This document shows, piece after piece, positions 29,770-40,089 of a DNA stretch of 64,000 bases. Under the pieces are notes generated by a model. That model searched no databases and was not told the origin of the DNA. It was given only the letters and a program-made list of their open reading frames with translations. Position 1 is the stretch's first letter; the number at the start of each line of letters is the position of its first letter. The position numbers and the translations under genes are program-made. Source of the stretch: Kiloniella litopenaei (GTDB lineage Bacteria > Pseudomonadota > Alphaproteobacteria > Kiloniellales > Kiloniellaceae). The DNA lies in assembly GCF_000982415.1 (NCBI RefSeq), contig NZ_LANI01000021.1:1-64000 (forward strand), given 5' to 3'.

Positions 29770-29791
29770 AACAAACCTTGTTTGCTATTAG

Positions 29792-29825
29792 AAAAGGGGT
29801 TGGTGATTTTACCAACCCCTTTTTT
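29792..29825 (+). terminator. Rho-independent terminator of cysD-cysNC
   Basis: A perfect stem (AAAAGGGGTTGGT at 29792-29804 with its complement from 29811) has a 6-base loop and ends in six T residues. The next gene begins 205 bp later, so this closes the sulfate-activation operon. Confidence 0.9.
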
Positions 29826-30029
29826 ATGCCTTAATTTTGCGCGAAAGTAAGTAATATTAATACTACCTTAGCCCGTATTGTGGTTTACTTAAGCATGAGA
29901 GGATTGAGATAATGTGTTTCTTGATCTCTGAATTGTGATTTTCAGGTGAGGATGTTCGTACACAGATAATTATTATGAAGCCGCATTCTAATCTAGCAGG
30001 ATTTTGCGGGTAATGGCTTAGGTGGGGAG

Positions 30030-32381
30030 ATGGATACAGAGCTGGACCTCGACTTCAAACCAACATACGACTGGTGTGTGAGGGCTTTTTCTTTGGTGAA
30101 AAGTCGTCTTGGCATCAATATTTGCCTGCACGATGACTACGATAAGTTTGCTGAGGGCGATATTTATCTTTTTAATCATTTCGCCCGGTTTGAAACCATT
30201 ATCCCCCAGTATCTCATCCACGAAGAAACAGGCCAGTATTGTCGTTGTGTTGCCGCGGGTGAATTGTTCGAGGGCAGTGAATCTTTTGCCAACTTTTTAT
30301 ACGGTGTTGGCGCTGTGCCGCATAATCATCCGGGGTTGCTCCCATTTTTGGCGGCTGAAATACTGAGAGGCCGTAAGGTCATCATTTTTCCAGAAGGAGG
30401 AATGGTCAAAGACAGGCATGTTGTCGGGCCATCCGGCGAATACAGTATCTTTTCTCCAACAGCAAAGATCAGGCGTAAGCATCATACCGGGGCCGCGGTT
30501 CTGGCGCTGACTGTGGAGCTATTCAAGCAACGCGTTTTGTCTGTTTTTGAAGCCAAGGAGTATGCACGTCTTGAGCGGTGGGCAAAGGCATTGGAGATGG
30601 ATACAACAGAAGAGCTTCTGGCGGTCGCCAGCAAGCCGACAGAAATCATTCCGGCTAACATTACGTTTTATCCCATCAGGGCGAGTGACAATATTTTAAG
30701 CCGAAGCGCAGAGTTCTTCAGCAAAGGAAGTAACCCCAGGCTGGTTGAAGAGGTGCTGATAGAGGCGAATATGATCCTCAAGAATTGTGATATGGATATT
30801 CGTGTCAGCAAGCCATTGGATGTGCGTCATGTGTGGAAATGGTGGGAAAAACGCCTGCTTTCCAGAGTATTTAACCAGATCAATTCTCTGGATGATTTTT
30901 TCAAACTATCTCATGCTCCGGATACATTGAATGAAAAGATCTTCAAGCTGTGTAGTTCCCGTGGAACCAATCGTCTGCGCGATTATTATATGGACGCGAT
31001 ATATACAGGGGTCACGGTAAATCTCTATCACTTGGCCTCGTCTTTAATTCGGTATCTTGTTTTAAAAAAAGAACCGCGCATTTTAAAATCAGATTTTCAT
31101 ACTGCTCTCTATCTCGGTATTAAGTCGTGTCAGAAAAAATCAGATGTTCACCCGCACCGTAGCCTGACGAAGCCTGAAAATTATTGGAACCTGGGGAACG
31201 GGCAGATTTGTGGCGCGTTGGAAAAATATATGTCTGCCGAAGGCTGTGCAGAACACATTACGCAAGATGGGGATTATTATATTTTTGATGAAACTGTTCT
31301 TGAGATGACAAGCTTTAATACGGTTCGATTAGAGAATTTGATCCGTGTTTATGCTAACGAAGTGATGCCCATCAAAGAAGCTGTTGTCAGTGTCGAAGAA
31401 GCCTATGAAACTCTAATGGATGTTGAGCGAAAGACATTGGCATTCCATCTTTTTGATGATGAAATGCTGTCTCTTGATTGCGATCGTAAAACCTATACCA
31501 AGCCCCATCATCTGGAAATCAATATTAAGGAAACAGCCTGTGCACCCGCAGAGCCTTATCTAATCGTACCCGAAAACTGCCGTAAAACGGGGGTTCTTAT
31601 CGTTCATGGCCTTTTGGCTTCTCCATCTGAGTTGTATGAATTCGGACGTGAAATATCCGAGCTTGGTTTTGCTGTTATGGGCGTTCGTTTAAAGGGGCAT
31701 GGTACATCCCCTTGGGATTTAAGGGATCGGCACTGGCAGGATTGGATGGATTCCATTGGGCGCGGGCGACAGATTTTATCTGCTTTTGTTGATGATATTA
31801 GTCTCGTGGGGTTTGCGACTGGTGGCACGCTTTCCCTGCTTGAAGCTGCGCATAACCCCGTTGGGATATCCTCTGTTTCAGCAGTTTCAGTACCGTGGCA
31901 GTTCAAGGCGCGTAATCTGTTGTTTGCTCACCTTGCTCATGGTTTGGAAAAGCTGACAAGCTGGGTGCCGACAATAGAAGAAAAAGGAGTTTTTAAAGAG
32001 CACCCCAGTGAAAATCCGGAAATTAACTATCGTAGCGTCCCTGTGCGAACGACATATGAGCTTTATCAACTGCATGAACAGCTTCGCGAAAACCTGCCGC
32101 ATGTTTCCTGCCCAGTGAAGCTTTTTCAGGGGATTGAAGACCCAATTGTCGATGCCGAAGGGATTAACAAGGTTTTTGATTTGATCGGTGCAGAAGATAA
32201 AGAGCTGATCATGGTGGAATCAGAGAAGCACGGCATTTTGCACGAGAACATTGGTAATTGTCGACAGGGCATTTTGGGCTTTCTGGAAAGTATTGATCAG
32301 CGGTCAGTGGCCGATCACAAGGTAGAACAAAAAGGAAAAGCGGAAGAGCATCTTTTGGAAAATCAAGGGATAGGCGCATGA
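30030..32381 (+). CDS. PlsC-like acyltransferase fused to alpha/beta hydrolase domain with Ser-to-Ala nucleophile
   Basis: A 783-residue two-domain protein. Residues about 40-240 resemble a glycerolipid acyltransferase: FNHFARFE stands where NHxxxxD is usual, and IIFPEGGMV where FPEGTR-like sequences lie. The middle (300-500) is helical and unassigned. Residues about 515-765 are an alpha/beta hydrolase of the monoglyceride lipase kind: VHGLLASPSELYEFG, then LKGHGTSPWD, GIEDPIVDAEG (acid) and SEKHGILHE (His). The nucleophile elbow is GFATGGTLSL, with Ala596 (codon GCG, 31815-31817) where Ser is expected, so ordinary Ser hydrolysis looks lost. The last codons overlap the fadD ATG by four bases, tying it to beta-oxidation. 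No signal peptide. Lipid remodelling or acyl-group sensing is conceivable; the function is unknown. Confidence 0.75.
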   Translation: MDTELDLDFKPTYDWCVRAFSLVKSRLGINICLHDDYDKFAEGDIYLFNHFARFETIIPQYLIHEETGQYCRCVAAGELFEGSESFANFLYGVGAVPHNHPGLLPFLAAEILRGRKVIIFPEGGMVKDRHVVGPSGEYSIFSPTAKIRRKHHTGAAVLALTVELFKQRVLSVFEAKEYARLERWAKALEMDTTEELLAVASKPTEIIPANITFYPIRASDNILSRSAEFFSKGSNPRLVEEVLIEANMILKNCDMDIRVSKPLDVRHVWKWWEKRLLSRVFNQINSLDDFFKLSHAPDTLNEKIFKLCSSRGTNRLRDYYMDAIYTGVTVNLYHLASSLIRYLVLKKEPRILKSDFHTALYLGIKSCQKKSDVHPHRSLTKPENYWNLGNGQICGALEKYMSAEGCAEHITQDGDYYIFDETVLEMTSFNTVRLENLIRVYANEVMPIKEAVVSVEEAYETLMDVERKTLAFHLFDDEMLSLDCDRKTYTKPHHLEINIKETACAPAEPYLIVPENCRKTGVLIVHGLLASPSELYEFGREISELGFAVMGVRLKGHGTSPWDLRDRHWQDWMDSIGRGRQILSAFVDDISLVGFATGGTLSLLEAAHNPVGISSVSAVSVPWQFKARNLLFAHLAHGLEKLTSWVPTIEEKGVFKEHPSENPEINYRSVPVRTTYELYQLHEQLRENLPHVSCPVKLFQGIEDPIVDAEGINKVFDLIGAEDKELIMVESEKHGILHENIGNCRQGILGFLESIDQRSVADHKVEQKGKAEEHLLENQGIGA

Positions 32382-34060
32382 GTGAACAGGTGAAAAAAGC
32401 ATCTCATACTGGTACTTATCCCGAAGCTTCTTTACTGCGGGATGATGCGGTTCGGCCTGATAATCAATCTCTTTATCAAAATCTGGAACAGGTTGCTGCG
32501 CGGTTCCCCGACCGTACCTGTGTCGAGTTTCTTGGCCGCAGCTATAGTTACGCAGATATTTATGAGCAAGTACAACTTGTTGCAGCAGGGTTGCAGCGTC
32601 AGGGTGTTAACAAGGGGGATTGTGTGGTTCTGTTCCTGCCGAACTGCCCTTATTTTGTTGTTTGTTATTATGCGATTTTAAAAATTGGGGCGATTGTTGT
32701 TAATTCAAATCCTTTGTATGCACCTGAAGAACTGGAACACCAGCTCAAGGATTGTGGCGCGAAGCTTTTGATAACGCTGGATGTTAAAGAACTTTGCGAG
32801 AAAGTCGAAAAACAGTTCTTTGAAACACCTTTGGAAAAAGTTGTTATTTGTCGGCTTGCCCAGGCGATGCCAGTGATCAAGGGAACACTGTTTTCTTTAT
32901 TGCAGTTTCACAAGATATCGCACCCTTCAGGGCCGGAATTTATAGAATTTACTGATCTGTCCGAGAGCAAAGAAGGTGCTTACGCCGTTGATGTTTCTCG
33001 TAAGGATACCGCCGTCTTGCAATATACAGGGGGCACGACGGGTAAACCGAAGGGTGCTATCCTTAGCCATGGTAACGTTCTTGCCAATACGACCCAAGTT
33101 GTGGCCTGGTTTTCGGATGCTGTGCCGGGTGAAGAACGTATTCTTGGTGTTTTGCCGATGTTTCATGTCTTTGCCATGACCACCGTCCTGAATATGGGAA
33201 TTGCGCTTGGGGCAGAGATAATTTTGCTCCCCCGGTTTCAATTGGGGCAGATGCTTAAAACGATAGATCGCTTGAAGCCAACAATAATGATGGGTGTTCC
33301 AACGTTGTATGGCGCGGTTAATAATTCTCCGGTTGTCGGGCGGTATGATCTTTCTTCGATTAAGTACTGTATCTCTGGCGGGGCACCGCTGCCATTGGAT
33401 ACAAAAAAGCAATTTGAAGCCATCACTGGCTGTGTTCTTGTCGAAGGGTACGGTTTGAGTGAAGCGTCACCTGTTTGTGCCTGTAATCCCGTAGGAGGAA
33501 AGAACAAAGAAGGAGCGATTGGATTACCGTTACCTGAAACGCATTTTGAAATTCGGGATATCGAAGCACCCCATGCCTTGCTGGACATCGGGGAGAAAGG
33601 AGAGCTCTGTGTTACGGGGCCTCAAGTCATGTCAGGTTATTGGCATAACGAGGAAGCAACTGGGCGCGCAATCAGGGAAGGACGCCTTCACACTGGTGAT
33701 GTTGGCTATATGGATGACGAGGGATATGTTTTCCTTTTGGATCGTCTCAAGGACTTGATCATTTGCAACGGCTACAATGTTTATCCCCGGAATATTGAAG
33801 AGGCGATCAATCGCCACCCTGCCGTCGAAGAAGTTACGGTCATTGGTGTTGCCGAGGTTGAGCACGGTGAAATCCCCAAAGCCTTTATCAAGTTACGGAC
33901 AGATAAAAAACTGGCTGAAGATGAGCTGTTAGAGTTTCTGGAAGAATACCTGTCCCCGATTGAAATGCCGAGAGAAATTGAGTTCAGATCTGAACTTCCC
34001 AAAACCATGATTGGCAAACTTTCCAAGAAAGAACTACGGGAAGAAACATCTTCGACATAG
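32378..34060 (+). CDS. fadD: Long-chain acyl-CoA synthetase
   Basis: An AMP-forming ligase that activates fatty acids as CoA thioesters. AVLQYTGGTTGKPKGAILSH is the ATP-binding P-loop. VEGYGLSEASPVCACNP is the adenylate motif. LHTGDVGYMDDEGYVFLLDR and LKDLIICNGYNVYPRNIEEA are the hinge and the C-terminal domain entry, and PKTMIGKLSKKELRE carries the catalytic Lys. At 560 residues it is full length, matching FadD in its YTGGTTG motif. It overlaps the upstream fusion gene and lies 71 bp before the thiolase. Chain-length preference cannot be read. Confidence 0.92.
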   Translation: MSEQVKKASHTGTYPEASLLRDDAVRPDNQSLYQNLEQVAARFPDRTCVEFLGRSYSYADIYEQVQLVAAGLQRQGVNKGDCVVLFLPNCPYFVVCYYAILKIGAIVVNSNPLYAPEELEHQLKDCGAKLLITLDVKELCEKVEKQFFETPLEKVVICRLAQAMPVIKGTLFSLLQFHKISHPSGPEFIEFTDLSESKEGAYAVDVSRKDTAVLQYTGGTTGKPKGAILSHGNVLANTTQVVAWFSDAVPGEERILGVLPMFHVFAMTTVLNMGIALGAEIILLPRFQLGQMLKTIDRLKPTIMMGVPTLYGAVNNSPVVGRYDLSSIKYCISGGAPLPLDTKKQFEAITGCVLVEGYGLSEASPVCACNPVGGKNKEGAIGLPLPETHFEIRDIEAPHALLDIGEKGELCVTGPQVMSGYWHNEEATGRAIREGRLHTGDVGYMDDEGYVFLLDRLKDLIICNGYNVYPRNIEEAINRHPAVEEVTVIGVAEVEHGEIPKAFIKLRTDKKLAEDELLEFLEEYLSPIEMPREIEFRSELPKTMIGKLSKKELREETSST

Positions 34061-34131: not shown

Positions 34132-35274
34132 ATGGTCGATATAGTCATTGCAGGTTATGCGCGTTCCCCGTTTCATTTTGCGAACAAAGGCGCTTTGGCC
34201 AAGGTTCGACCCGATGACCTTGTCTCGCAGGTCATTAAAGGACTGGTGCATAAAACAGGGATTGAAGGAAAGGCGATTGAAGCCGTTTTCATGGGGTGTG
34301 CTTTTCCAGAAGGCGAACAGGGATTAAACGTCGCCCGTCTGGCTGTGTTTCTGGCAGATTTACCGCAATCTGTAGGGGGGGCGACAATCAATCATTTTTG
34401 CGGGTCATCAATGCAGGCCATTCACATGGCTGCTGGCGCAATCTCAATGGGTGCAGGGAATGCTTATGTTTGTGCGGGTATTGAATCAATGACCCGTGTG
34501 CCGATGATGGGTTTTAACCCTCTGTTGAACCTGGCCCTCGCAAAGGAATATCCCGCGGCTTATGTTTCCATGGGGGAAACGGCTGAAAATGTTGCAGATA
34601 AATATGCCATCAGCCGAAAGGATCAGGATCAGTTTTCCCTTAACAGCCATCTGAAAGCTGCCGCTGCACAGGATAAGGGAAACTTCAGCGATGAAGTCAT
34701 TCCTGTAAAAACGGCAACGGGGGATGTCATTGATCAGGATGGCTGTATACGGGGCAGCAGTACGATTGAGGGATTGTCCGGGCTTTCCCCTGCTTTTAAA
34801 GAAGAGGGAAGCGTAACCGCCGGATCGTCATCGCCACTGACCGATGGGGCAACCGCAGTTATTGTCTGTACGGCTGACTTTGCAAAGGCGCAGGGATTGG
34901 ATGTGCTGGCTAAAATTCGCAGCATTGCTGTTGCAGGTTGTGCGCCGGAAATCATGGGAATTGGTCCGGTTGCCGCGACAAACAAGGCAATTGAACGCGC
35001 CGGAATTTCCCTCTCTGATCTTGATGTTATTGAATTGAACGAAGCCTTTGCCAGCCAGGCGCTGGCCTGTATGGCTGATTTAAAGCTGGATGAAAGCAAA
35101 ATTAATCTGGATGGTGGCGCGATTGCCATTGGGCATCCCTTGGGGGCTACAGGGGCGCGTATTACAGGTAAAGCGGCCCAGTTGCTAAGGCGGGAAAAGG
35201 GAAAGTTTGCGCTGGCAACTCAGTGTATTGGCGGCGGTCAGGGAATAGCGACTGTACTGGAGGCCGTTGAATGA
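34132..35274 (+). CDS. fadA: Acetyl-CoA acyltransferase (3-ketoacyl-CoA thiolase)
   Basis: This thiolase cleaves 3-ketoacyl-CoA to acetyl-CoA and a shortened acyl-CoA, the last step of the cycle. The nucleophile Cys is in HFCGSSMQAIHMAAGA, the His in GGAIAIGHPLGATGARI, and the second Cys in TQCIGGGQG. VIELNEAFASQALACM is the conserved NEAF loop. At 380 residues it is normal. Its stop codon overlaps the fadN-like ATG (ATGA), indicating coupled translation with the partner that makes its substrate. Confidence 0.93.
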   Translation: MVDIVIAGYARSPFHFANKGALAKVRPDDLVSQVIKGLVHKTGIEGKAIEAVFMGCAFPEGEQGLNVARLAVFLADLPQSVGGATINHFCGSSMQAIHMAAGAISMGAGNAYVCAGIESMTRVPMMGFNPLLNLALAKEYPAAYVSMGETAENVADKYAISRKDQDQFSLNSHLKAAAAQDKGNFSDEVIPVKTATGDVIDQDGCIRGSSTIEGLSGLSPAFKEEGSVTAGSSSPLTDGATAVIVCTADFAKAQGLDVLAKIRSIAVAGCAPEIMGIGPVAATNKAIERAGISLSDLDVIELNEAFASQALACMADLKLDESKINLDGGAIAIGHPLGATGARITGKAAQLLRREKGKFALATQCIGGGQGIATVLEAVE

Positions 35275-37610
35275 AGGGGATAAATAAAGTTGCCGTCATC
35301 GGCGCAGGCGTCATGGGGGCTGGCATTGCCGCGCAGATTGCAAATGCAGGCGTGCCTGTTCTCTTGTTTGATCGCCCGGTAGAAAGTTCAGAGGATAAAG
35401 AGGGACGTAATCAAATCGCCAAGGATGCCATTGGTAAGCTGATCAAAAGTAATCCGGCTGCTTTGATGAGCAAAGGGAATGCAAAACGCATTACCCCCGC
35501 GAACACAGAAGATGATTTGGGGCTTTTGTCTGACTGTGATTGGATCGTAGAGGCAATTATTGAAGACGTCACGATCAAGCAGACGCTTTATAAAAAAATT
35601 GATAAATTCCGCAAGAAGGGCGCGGTTTTTTCATCCAACACTTCTACTTTGTGCCGAGAACAGCTTGTCGCTGGTTTGCCTGAAAGCTTCAGGCGTGATT
35701 TTCTGATCACTCATTTTTTTAATCCGCCTCGTTATATGCGCTTGCTTGAGCTTGTCTCGGGTCCTGAAGTTTCGGAAGAACAGTGCAAGCTGATCGAGCG
35801 GTTTTGTGATCACAGTCTGGGAAAAGGTGTCGTTCATTGTAGGGATACACCGGGCTTTCTTGCCAACCGTATAGGTATTTTCTGGCTGCAATGTGCCGTT
35901 GTCGAGGCCATGAAACAGAATATTTCCATAGAGCTTGCAGATGCTGTGATCGGGCGACCCTTTGGTATTCCCAAGACAGGCGTTTTTGCGTTATTGGATA
36001 TGGTTGGGCTGGATCTCATGCCCCATGTTCTCTCTTCTATGTCAGAAAGCTTGCCACCTGATGACCCTTTTCATGAAATCTATCAGGAACCGGAACTGAT
36101 CAAGACCCTTATTGCCGATGGCTATACCGGACGTAAGGGCAAGGGAGGGTTTTATCGTCTCAGGCCGGATAGTTCTGACAAGATAAAAGAAGCGATTGAC
36201 TTAAATACAGGTGACTATGCAAAAGCGGAGCGCCCTGTCGTTGCAGTTGTTAAAAAAGCAGGTCGCAAGAACCCGCGCAAGGTTCTGGAAGATGACAGTA
36301 CTGCGGGGCGTTATGCCTGGTCTGTTATGTCAAAAACACTGGCCTATGCGGCATCACTGGTCCCTGATGTTTCCGATGATATTGAAGCCATCGATGAAGC
36401 CATGCGGTTAGGGTACAACTGGAAATATGGTCCTTTCGAGTTGTTGGACCAAATCGGTGCGGAATGGTTCTGCGCGAAGCTGCGGTCTGAAAAGATAGAG
36501 GTTCCCTCAGTTTTACGAAATGTCGGCACGGGTAAATTCTATCGTAAATCAAAAGGAGCCAGAGAAGTCTTTGGACCTGAAGGACAGTATTTAAAGCGTT
36601 ATCCCAATGCCGGAGTTCTCAGGCTCGATGATATTAAAGCCAGATCAAAACCTGTCATGCGGAACCCCTCTGCATCCCTGTGGGATCTGGATGATGACGT
36701 TTTGTGTCTGGAATTTCATAGCAAAATGAACTCTCTCAATCTTTGGACCTTGTCCATGATGGACCGCGCCAGAGAGAAAATTGAAACCAGTGAATACAAA
36801 GCACTGGTTGTTTATAACGATGGCAGCAATTTTTCGGTCGGGGCCAATATCGGTTTGATGTCAGTTGCGGCCCGGCTTTGGGCCTACCCCTTTATTGATT
36901 ATATGGTTCGTCGCGGTCAGGAAACGTACAAAGCATTGAAGTTCGCGCCTTTTCCCGTTGTTTCTGCGCCTTCGGGGATGGCGTTGGGCGGGGCCTGTGA
37001 GTTGCTGTTACACAGTGATGCAGTGCAGGCACACGCAGAGACCTACACAGGGTTGGTCGAGGTCGGTGTTGGTATTATCCCGGGATGGGGAGGCTGCAAG
37101 GAAATGATGTGCCGCTGGTCTTTGGCATCCGATACACCGCGCGGCCCCATGCCCGCGGTGTCGAAAGTTTTTGAGCTGATTGGACTGGCACAGGTCGCCA
37201 AATCTGCAGAAGAAGCACGAGATATGAAAATCATCCGGGCGGATGACAGGATTACGATGAACCGTGACCGTGTTCTTGCTGATGCCAAAGAGCGGGCGCT
37301 TGAACTGGTTTCCGGATACCACGCACCAACAGCAGCTGAAATCGCTTTGCCGGGTGAAAGTGGTAAAGTTGCTCTGGATCTGGCTGTGGAAGGTTTTCGA
37401 AAATCAGGAAAGGCCACGCCGCACGATGTCGTCGTTTCGGCGGCCCTTTCAACTGTTCTGAGCGGCGGTGATACGGATATGACTGGTAAAGTCAGCGAAG
37501 ACAGATTGTTACAGTTAGAGCGTGAGGCATTCCATACACTGTGCCGTCATCCTGATACGATTGAGCGTGTACATCACATGCTCAAGACAGGTAAGCCTTT
37601 GAGAAATTGA
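35271..37610 (+). CDS. fadN: 3-hydroxyacyl-CoA dehydrogenase / enoyl-CoA hydratase, FadN-type domain order
   Basis: A 779-residue bifunctional enzyme with the dehydrogenase first and the hydratase last. The NAD fold opens VAVIGAGVMGAGIAAQIANA, and ITHFFNPPRYMRLLELVSG supplies the catalytic His and Glu. Two 3HCDH C-domains follow (to about 420). The crotonase part is at about 460-690: SGMALGGACELLLHSD and GLVEVGVGIIPGWGG hold both catalytic Glu residues. This order is that of Bacillus FadN (YusL), opposite to E. coli FadB. It is coupled to the thiolase gene upstream and 58 bp before fadE. Confidence 0.92.
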   Translation: MKGINKVAVIGAGVMGAGIAAQIANAGVPVLLFDRPVESSEDKEGRNQIAKDAIGKLIKSNPAALMSKGNAKRITPANTEDDLGLLSDCDWIVEAIIEDVTIKQTLYKKIDKFRKKGAVFSSNTSTLCREQLVAGLPESFRRDFLITHFFNPPRYMRLLELVSGPEVSEEQCKLIERFCDHSLGKGVVHCRDTPGFLANRIGIFWLQCAVVEAMKQNISIELADAVIGRPFGIPKTGVFALLDMVGLDLMPHVLSSMSESLPPDDPFHEIYQEPELIKTLIADGYTGRKGKGGFYRLRPDSSDKIKEAIDLNTGDYAKAERPVVAVVKKAGRKNPRKVLEDDSTAGRYAWSVMSKTLAYAASLVPDVSDDIEAIDEAMRLGYNWKYGPFELLDQIGAEWFCAKLRSEKIEVPSVLRNVGTGKFYRKSKGAREVFGPEGQYLKRYPNAGVLRLDDIKARSKPVMRNPSASLWDLDDDVLCLEFHSKMNSLNLWTLSMMDRAREKIETSEYKALVVYNDGSNFSVGANIGLMSVAARLWAYPFIDYMVRRGQETYKALKFAPFPVVSAPSGMALGGACELLLHSDAVQAHAETYTGLVEVGVGIIPGWGGCKEMMCRWSLASDTPRGPMPAVSKVFELIGLAQVAKSAEEARDMKIIRADDRITMNRDRVLADAKERALELVSGYHAPTAAEIALPGESGKVALDLAVEGFRKSGKATPHDVVVSAALSTVLSGGDTDMTGKVSEDRLLQLEREAFHTLCRHPDTIERVHHMLKTGKPLRN

Positions 37611-37668: not shown

Positions 37669-40089
37669 ATGATTATCCTTTTCACGTTCATACTTGCGAT
37701 CATTGTTGCTGCAACGCTGTTTTATCGCGGGCAAGGGTTTTGGGGATGGGTGCTGGCTCTTCTGGTGCTTATTGCTGGTGGTGATCTGGCCGGAATGCCA
37801 ACGGTCCTTACAGGATGGGCAATCATTCTGACAGCGGTTTTGTCCGGATTGTTTGGTGTTCATGCTATCCGGCGACCTTTTCTAACCGCAGCCTTGATGA
37901 AAATAGTCAAGCGCAGCCTGCCTAAAATCAGTGAGACCGAACAGACTGCGTTAGACGCCGGTACAGTGTGGTGGGATGCTGAGATATTCAGTGGCCGCCC
38001 TGATTGGGCGACGCTGGAAGAGTTTAATGTTTCCGGATTAACAAAAGAAGAGCAGGCGTTTCTGGATGGTCCTGTCGAAGAAATCTGTCGGGAAACAGAC
38101 GACTGGAAGATTGCTCAGGATCGGGATCTTCCCGAAGAGTTATGGCAAAAACTGAGGGATATGAAATTTTTCGGGATGATTATTCCCAAAAAATACGGAG
38201 GGTTGGGCTTTTCTGCACAGGCGCATTCTGCTGTCGTGCTGAAGCTTTCATCCCGTTCTCTGCCTCTGTCGGTCATTGTGATGGTCCCGAATTCTTTGGG
38301 ACCGGCTGAACTGTTACTCCATTACGGTACGGATGAACAAAAAGATTATTATCTTCCGCGTCTGGCAACCGGAGAAGAGATGCCGTGTTTTGCTTTGACA
38401 GAACCAAAGGCCGGAAGTGATGCGGCCTCAATTCAGAGCCACGGTGTTATTTGTGAAGAGAAGATCAAGGGTAAGAAAGTTCTGGGTATCCGCCTTAACT
38501 GGCGTAAACGCTATATTACATTGGCTCCTGTTGCGACGGTTATTGGCCTGGCTTTCAAGTTGAGTGACCCCGATGGTTTGTTGGGTGACAAAGAAGACCT
38601 TGGTATAACCTGTGCGCTGATCCCACGGGATACAAAGGGTATGTCAATTGGCAGACGCCATGACCCGATGGGCATTCCCTTTCCAAACGGCCCCATTGAG
38701 GGCAAGGATGTTTTCATCCCAATCAGCTATGTGATCGGTGGTGAAGAAGGCGTTGGGCAGGGGTGGCGTATGCTGATGGAATCTCTTGCCGCAGGGCGAT
38801 CGGTTTCTCTTCCCTCTCTTTCTTTGGGGGCATCACAGTTGGCGACGCGTGTGACCGGGGCTTATTCTGCCGTTCGCCGTCAGTTCGGACTGCCAATTGG
38901 CAAGTTTGAAGGGGTGGCAGAACGTCTGGCCAGAATTGGCGGGCTGACCTATGGGATGGATGCGGCGCGACAATTAACCTGCGCCGCTGTTGATGCCGGA
39001 GAGCGCCCTTCAGTACTATCGGGCATCGCCAAGGCTTACTTAACGGAAAACATGCGAACGGTTTTTCTGGATGCCATGGACATATTGGGCGGTGCTGCGA
39101 TTTGTCGGGGCCCGAAAAACCTTCTGAGCCGGGCCTATGATGGATTGCCGATTGCCATTACGGTTGAAGGGGCAAATATCTTGACCCGATCCATGATTAT
39201 CTTTGGGCAGGGATCTATTCGTGGCCATCCCTTTGTCCCAAAAGAGCTGGAAGCTGTGGCAAAGAATAGCCTCGAAGATTTTGATGATGCTTTTTGGGGA
39301 CATATCAACTTTACAGTTTGTAATGCGGTCAGAGCTGGTATTGACGGATTGACCGCAGGACGTTTTCTCAAAGTTAGGGGCACGGCAAAAGCGCGTCGGC
39401 ACAAACAGCTAATCACCCGCTATTCATCGGCCTTTGTTTTGGTTGCAGACGTTTCCATGCTGTTGCTGGGCAGCAGTTTAAAGCGCCGGGAAACCCTTAG
39501 CGGGCGTCTTGCAGACGCTTTATCCTGGCTTTATCTGGCGACAGCAGCGGTGAAGCGTTTTGAAGACGAAGGAAGTTCGAAAGAAGACGAACTTTATCTG
39601 GACTGGTTTTGCGCGCATGCCTATCAGGAAATAGAAACGGCGTTGCTGACAATCACACACAACTATCCGGTCAAGTTTGTCGGAACGATGCTGCGACTAC
39701 GATTGTTCCTTCTGGGGCGAAAAGCCCATGGCCCAACGGACATGCAGAACATTGCACTGGCTAATCGATTGATGGGGGATCTCGGCGGACGCGAAAAACT
39801 GTCCAGTGATATTTCAGTATCAGATAGTCCGGATGATGCTATGGGAGCTTTGGAACAAGCCTACCGCAAGATACAGGCGGTTATTCCGTTGGAGGCCCGT
39901 ATCCGCACTTCGCGGAAAACGGGCGTTTTGAAGGGTGTTGCGCGGGAAGATCTATATCAGGCTGCTCTGGAAAAAGGTGTCGTTGATGACGATGAATTCC
40001 AGCAACTCTTGGAAGCTCAGAGCCTCGCAGATGCGGTTGTCGAGGTAGATGACTATAGTCAGACTGCCTATAAACGGCTGAAGGGGTGA
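37669..40089 (+). CDS. fadE: Acyl-CoA dehydrogenase, long FadE type
   Basis: The first oxidation of the cycle, acyl-CoA to trans-2-enoyl-CoA with FAD. At 806 residues it is the long enterobacterial-type FadE. Two hydrophobic N-terminal helices (residues 1-65) are followed by the dehydrogenase core with CFALTEPKAGSDAASIQSHG, and by SRAYDGLPIAITVEGANILT near residue 495. A long C-terminal DUF1974-like region follows. The membrane segments suggest inner-membrane association and electron transfer through ETF. It is the last gene of the run; an imperfect stem-loop lies about 60 bp downstream. Confidence 0.92.
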   Translation: MIILFTFILAIIVAATLFYRGQGFWGWVLALLVLIAGGDLAGMPTVLTGWAIILTAVLSGLFGVHAIRRPFLTAALMKIVKRSLPKISETEQTALDAGTVWWDAEIFSGRPDWATLEEFNVSGLTKEEQAFLDGPVEEICRETDDWKIAQDRDLPEELWQKLRDMKFFGMIIPKKYGGLGFSAQAHSAVVLKLSSRSLPLSVIVMVPNSLGPAELLLHYGTDEQKDYYLPRLATGEEMPCFALTEPKAGSDAASIQSHGVICEEKIKGKKVLGIRLNWRKRYITLAPVATVIGLAFKLSDPDGLLGDKEDLGITCALIPRDTKGMSIGRRHDPMGIPFPNGPIEGKDVFIPISYVIGGEEGVGQGWRMLMESLAAGRSVSLPSLSLGASQLATRVTGAYSAVRRQFGLPIGKFEGVAERLARIGGLTYGMDAARQLTCAAVDAGERPSVLSGIAKAYLTENMRTVFLDAMDILGGAAICRGPKNLLSRAYDGLPIAITVEGANILTRSMIIFGQGSIRGHPFVPKELEAVAKNSLEDFDDAFWGHINFTVCNAVRAGIDGLTAGRFLKVRGTAKARRHKQLITRYSSAFVLVADVSMLLLGSSLKRRETLSGRLADALSWLYLATAAVKRFEDEGSSKEDELYLDWFCAHAYQEIETALLTITHNYPVKFVGTMLRLRLFLLGRKAHGPTDMQNIALANRLMGDLGGREKLSSDISVSDSPDDAMGALEQAYRKIQAVIPLEARIRTSRKTGVLKGVAREDLYQAALEKGVVDDDEFQQLLEAQSLADAVVEVDDYSQTAYKRLKG

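Follow-up and report, generated by a model that had tools for sequence, protein, structure and literature searches.

Loss of the nucleophilic serine in the lipase-like domain of an acyltransferase fusion protein throughout the genus Kiloniella

Why would a bacterium keep a lipase-like domain whose catalytic serine has been replaced? The question is raised by a gene in a 64,000-nucleotide stretch of the Kiloniella litopenaei genome (the window; contig NZ_LANI01000021.1, positions 1 to 64,000, forward strand), which codes for an acyltransferase joined through a middle region to an alpha/beta-hydrolase. The reading frame is open throughout, from the ATG at 30030 to the TGA at 32379-32381, and the gene is present as a single full-length copy in all nine Kiloniella genomes, the closest named relatives being K. 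majae (92% identity), K. spongiae (91%) and K. laminariae (68-69%). Its layout is as follows.

30030..32381, + strand: acyltransferase / pseudo-hydrolase fusion gene, 783 aa, the operon's first gene
30030..30929, + strand: acyltransferase domain, PlsC/PF01553-like, residues 1-300, with a weak PF01553 match in the window copy
30930..31529, + strand: middle region, residues 301-500, without sequence matches in Pfam or the PDB
31542..32300, + strand: alpha/beta-hydrolase domain of the Hydrolase_4 / bacterial monoacylglycerol-lipase type, residues about 505-757, matching PF12146

The fusion proteins form a mostly alphaproteobacterial, uncharacterised family. The Pfam and NCBIfam scans made returned no model for the whole fusion, and a narrow search of open-access literature found no paper on an acyltransferase-hydrolase fusion. 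The middle region had no consistent Pfam match in any of 35 family members and no PDB relative detectable by sequence; it is conserved across all homologues, with invariant residues such as Y325, H334, H376, R433, N443 and E444. A full-length structure model from nine close sequences was poor (mean pLDDT 52.6), with residues 1-329 unusable. Upstream of the gene, a promoter scan gave one weak match, the same number as in shuffled sequences. A 16-nt inverted repeat at 29789-29826 (arms 94% complementary, 6 nt apart) lies just 3' of a cysN/C-like gene and is perhaps its terminator; it does not figure in the terminator scan list.

The C-terminal domain matched the Hydrolase_4 profile (PF12146) with 62.1 bits against a cut-off of 27, and its nearest solved relatives were bacterial monoacylglycerol lipase (bMGL) structures (best E 2.4e-25). 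A model of this domain built from the nine Kiloniella sequences (mean pLDDT 72.5, pTM 0.77) could be aligned with 206-225 residues of bMGL and Est30 structures, giving Z about 23-24 and rmsd 2.7-3.4. Four elements of the active site were located.

31605..31625, + strand: HGLLASP oxyanion-hole segment, beginning at H526, retained
31815..31817, + strand: codon GCG of Ala596, replacing the nucleophilic Ser, in the elbow LVGFATGG
32139..32141, + strand: Asp704, the catalytic acid, in GIEDPIVD, retained
32229..32231, + strand: His734, the catalytic His, in SEKHGI, retained

In the domain model, A596 occupies the turn between strand 86-92 and helix 94-105, which is the nucleophile elbow. An earlier note on this DNA had reported the Ala codon in GFATGG and the survival of the acid and the His; all of this was confirmed, the residues being 596, D704 and H734. 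The acid is D in 9/9 Kiloniella sequences and, outside the genus, D in 43 and E in one of 44 homologues, and the His is invariant in both sets (9/9 and 44/44). The nucleophilic Ser of GxSxG is missing from a domain that has the Hydrolase_4 profile, the fold, the Asp and the His.

None of the nine Kiloniella genomes has Ser at the elbow position, which is Ala in eight (GCG or GCA) and Gly in one (GGT, in L064). Outside Kiloniella, Ser was found in 44 of 44 aligned homologues, 34 from the same class and ten from one genus in another class of the phylum, and the Ser-bearing genomes include two other genera of Kiloniella's own family. A 45th outside homologue, from the same family and split over two contigs, reads GFSTGG. 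In the protein tree the Kiloniella sequences form one clade (support 92), so that a single loss of Ser on its stem suffices. Ser is a single base change away from the Ala codons of the eight genomes, and no reversion was seen. A sequencing error, an assembly error or a mutation confined to one strain has practically no chance of explaining the pattern and was ruled out, since nine separate assemblies agree and do so with differing codons (GCG, GCA, GGT). The earlier note would have taken Ser in all close relatives as a sign of such an error or local change: Ser is indeed universal outside the genus, but within it all nine sequences carry Ala or Gly, which makes the loss a lineage-wide derived state. 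Judged from the alignment and the tree, the loss of Ser is a derived state fixed across Kiloniella. The homologue at L094 contains one in-frame TGA within the aligned stretch, which nine relatives of the same genus lack. Within the K. litopenaei genome there is no paralogue of the whole fusion as a possible substitute; separate Hydrolase_4 proteins are encoded, the best of them a stand-alone protein (378-codon open frame, reverse strand) that reads GISMGG.

A domain that had lost its enzymatic role might be a relic, kept solely for the folding or stability of the chain and having no part in binding or docking. Several features of the Kiloniella branch lean this way. The ratio of hydrolase to acyltransferase branch length was 2.66 in Kiloniella, at the top of the range (other clades mostly about 0.6-2.5), and reached 5.1 in the L064/L065 pair; five of 36 conserved hydrolase columns were lost compared to 0-4 in most comparable clades; and in one species the Ala has gone on to Gly. 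Faster hydrolase branches together with more lost columns fit some relaxation, and Kiloniella-specific fixed changes were enriched in the hydrolase domain to an extent that is suggestive only (11/63 vs 10/126, p = 0.08). Against a relic, two Ser-bearing clades have a similar branch ratio (2.4-2.5), none of the nine species has lost the acid, the His or the oxyanion segment, and hydrolase-domain dN/dS was 0.02-0.05 in the computable Kiloniella pairs, values that are rough as synonymous sites are near saturation in many of them. Remnants of a triad would not be expected to stay conserved for stability alone, and we consider the relic reading unlikely. The ratio of hydrolase to acyltransferase dN/dS in Kiloniella lay inside the range of Ser-bearing pairs, and of 14 hydrolase columns invariant outside the genus, 13 are unchanged throughout the nine species and S596 alone is not. 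By these measures the hydrolase domain is under strong purifying selection in Kiloniella, dN/dS being a rough guide, and the substitution patterns indicate some change of constraint after the loss of Ser, yet no release from it. L064, the species with the Gly elbow, and L065 share 76% identity in the hydrolase domain and 94% in the acyltransferase domain.

The retention of Asp704 and His734 in all nine species could also mean that the domain continues to catalyse in a different way, with a His/Asp-activated water or the neighbouring Thr597 in place of the lost Ser, or through a non-hydrolytic reaction. Thr597 adjoins the vacant position, but it is common in Ser-bearing relatives too (GFSTGG) and hence represents no gain. 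A shifted nucleophile was ruled out, as no new Ser, Thr or Cys occurs among the changes fixed in the Kiloniella hydrolase domain relative to the outside consensus. The other mechanism that the earlier note had envisaged thus found no positive support, and we rate continued catalysis as distinctly improbable. Still less credible is that the Ser was never catalytic in the family, the domain having been a binding module throughout and the change to Ala neutral. A limited literature search found no activity report for any family member, in keeping with that idea; Ser, acid (D, once E) and His are nevertheless conserved in 44/44 outside homologues from two classes, as a working triad predicts.

The N-terminal domain carries two recognisable motifs.

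30174..30194, + strand: NHFARFE, residues 49-55, in which H50 and E55 are the HX4E catalytic dyad
30387..30401, + strand: FPEGG, residues 120-124, counterpart of the PlsC-like FPEG block

PF01553 matched the window copy at E 0.0014 (18.9 bits, under the 23-bit cut-off) and matched 35/35 family members scanned at E up to 1 (best E 2e-10). A PDB profile search with the acyltransferase alignment returned chance matches only. H50 and E55 are invariant in 54/54 homologues, P121, E122 and G123 in the homologue alignment A1, and all 17 acyltransferase columns invariant outside Kiloniella are kept within it. The motif singled out earlier as departing from the usual NHxxxxD is present, but it is not peculiar to this gene, the His and Glu being shared by every homologue. 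HX4E is also the motif of LpxM (PMC3087551, PMC6286764), and as a family-invariant motif known from that enzyme it was ruled out as the mark of a dead acyltransferase. We infer that the acyltransferase of the Kiloniella protein is active.

Directly downstream, the fusion gene is followed by a set of beta-oxidation genes.

32378..34060, + strand: fadD-like long-chain acyl-CoA synthetase, overlapping the fusion gene by 4 bp
34132..35274, + strand: fadA-like thiolase
35271..37610, + strand: fadB-like 3-hydroxyacyl-CoA dehydrogenase / enoyl-CoA hydratase
37669..40089, + strand: fadE-like acyl-CoA dehydrogenase

The overlap with fadD, already described in the earlier note, was borne out, with the fadD ATG at 32378 lying inside ...GCATGA. 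The same order of fusion gene, fadD, thiolase, fadB-like gene and fadE occurs in many other alphaproteobacteria, with fadD missing from some clusters, and in the genus of another class the fusion homologue sits behind thiolase, fadB-like and fadE-like genes. The dehydrogenase part of the fadB-like protein (35271-37610) precedes the hydratase part, an order opposite to that in E. coli FadB, and the protein's top NCBIfam model was Staph_FadB, below the cut-off of that model. In four other genomes the acyltransferase, middle region, hydrolase and FadD are in frame as one chain, each a single open reading frame (lengths stop to stop).

L070:6252-10316, - strand: triple fusion with FadD, 1355 aa
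L076:6246-10472, - strand: triple fusion with FadD, 1409 aa
L129:4485-8690, - strand: triple fusion with FadD, 1402 aa
L132:4096-8073, - strand: triple fusion with FadD, 1326 aa

These one-chain fusions argue that the hydrolase domain and FadD are physically coupled, and as all four carry the elbow Ser, such coupling needs no loss of Ser. The fusion at L129 has no beta-oxidation neighbours within 17 kb. Together, the operon and the fusions point to a coupling, physical and functional, of lipid acylation and deacylation with acyl-CoA formation.

The data on the Kiloniella domain are best accounted for by a pseudo-hydrolase that was kept for a non-hydrolytic role, rather than by decay or error. 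In the Ser-bearing members the hydrolase probably frees a fatty acid from monoacylglycerol or a lysolipid, and FadD would convert this to acyl-CoA, to be burned or returned to lipid by the acyltransferase. Serine hydrolases cannot follow the classical acyl-enzyme route once the nucleophile is gone. A change of Ser to Ala on the Kiloniella stem would have removed the covalent nucleophile, and with it classical hydrolysis, from a domain that was then apparently retained as a non-hydrolytic module, its fold, acid, His and oxyanion segment still in place. The module most likely binds lipid or an acyl chain, docks FadD next to the acyltransferase, or does both, and the protein would thereby be biased towards acylation. 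Taken as a whole, an explanation by loss of Ser on the stem and retention of the domain for lipid binding and/or FadD docking is, in our judgement, probably correct. The earlier note had also suggested a module for binding or regulation, in fatty-acid uptake or remodelling; it fits the lost Ser, the kept acid, His and oxyanion segment, the selection and the operon, although binding or regulation would itself have to be deduced from these. More tentatively, and with less confidence than we place in the explanation as a whole, a single Ser-to-Ala change may have turned a deacylation/reacylation enzyme into a device for one-way acylation and channelling, in which the lipase domain now holds lipid or docks FadD.

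As far as sequence can establish it, the Kiloniella domain is a genuine pseudo-hydrolase, derived and common to the whole genus, within an uncharacterised family of lipid enzymes, and a nearly intact hydrolase half that lacks its key Ser suggests that it now serves a job other than cutting fat. It offers a clean case of a pseudoenzyme domain, the nucleophile being lost in one genus and kept in all other sampled lineages with the operon unchanged, and a comparison of Ser and Ala orthologues would reveal the functions of the domain other than cutting. In Alphaproteobacteria the family, an acyltransferase with a lipase-like domain and sometimes an acyl-CoA ligase, may connect the turnover of membrane lipids with the breakdown of fatty acids.

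Among known systems, the bacterial monoacylglycerol lipases of PF12146 (from Bacillus sp. H257 and Geobacillus 12AMOR, bMGL) were the best sequence and structure matches of the Kiloniella hydrolase domain. They share its fold, GHGT motif, acid and His positions and oxyanion segment, whereas the Kiloniella domain lacks the nucleophilic Ser and follows, on the same chain, an acyltransferase and a region of no known family. With PlsC-like acyltransferases (PF01553) the fusion proteins have the NHxxxxE/D dyad and the FPEG block in common; they differ in having HX4E throughout rather than HX4D, and the window copy has diverged so far that it scores under the Pfam cut-off. Aas of Escherichia coli (2-acylglycerophosphoethanolamine acyltransferase / acyl-ACP synthetase) carries an acyltransferase and an acyl-activating domain on one chain (PMC11416262). 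This pairing of a PlsC-type acyltransferase with an acyl-activating enzyme recurs here, and the four FadD fusions keep the same order of both. Unlike Aas, the fusion family has the middle region and hydrolase domain in between, a FadD-like ligase and beta-oxidation gene neighbours, and in the window the two activities are not on one chain, the Kiloniella FadD being encoded by a separate overlapping gene. Alpha/beta-hydrolase proteins that are not enzymes and have substitutions in the triad are known to act in protein-protein interaction (PMC7022630), and ABHD1 of the alga Chlamydomonas is reported to act on lipid droplets in two separate ways, one enzymatic and one structural (PMC11711679). 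The NDRG family and neuroligins resemble the Kiloniella domain in that the hydrolase fold was kept after loss of catalytic residues and put to other uses (PMC7022630), but they are eukaryotic and have no acyltransferase fusion, and NDRG3 lost the whole triad where the Kiloniella domain lost the Ser alone.
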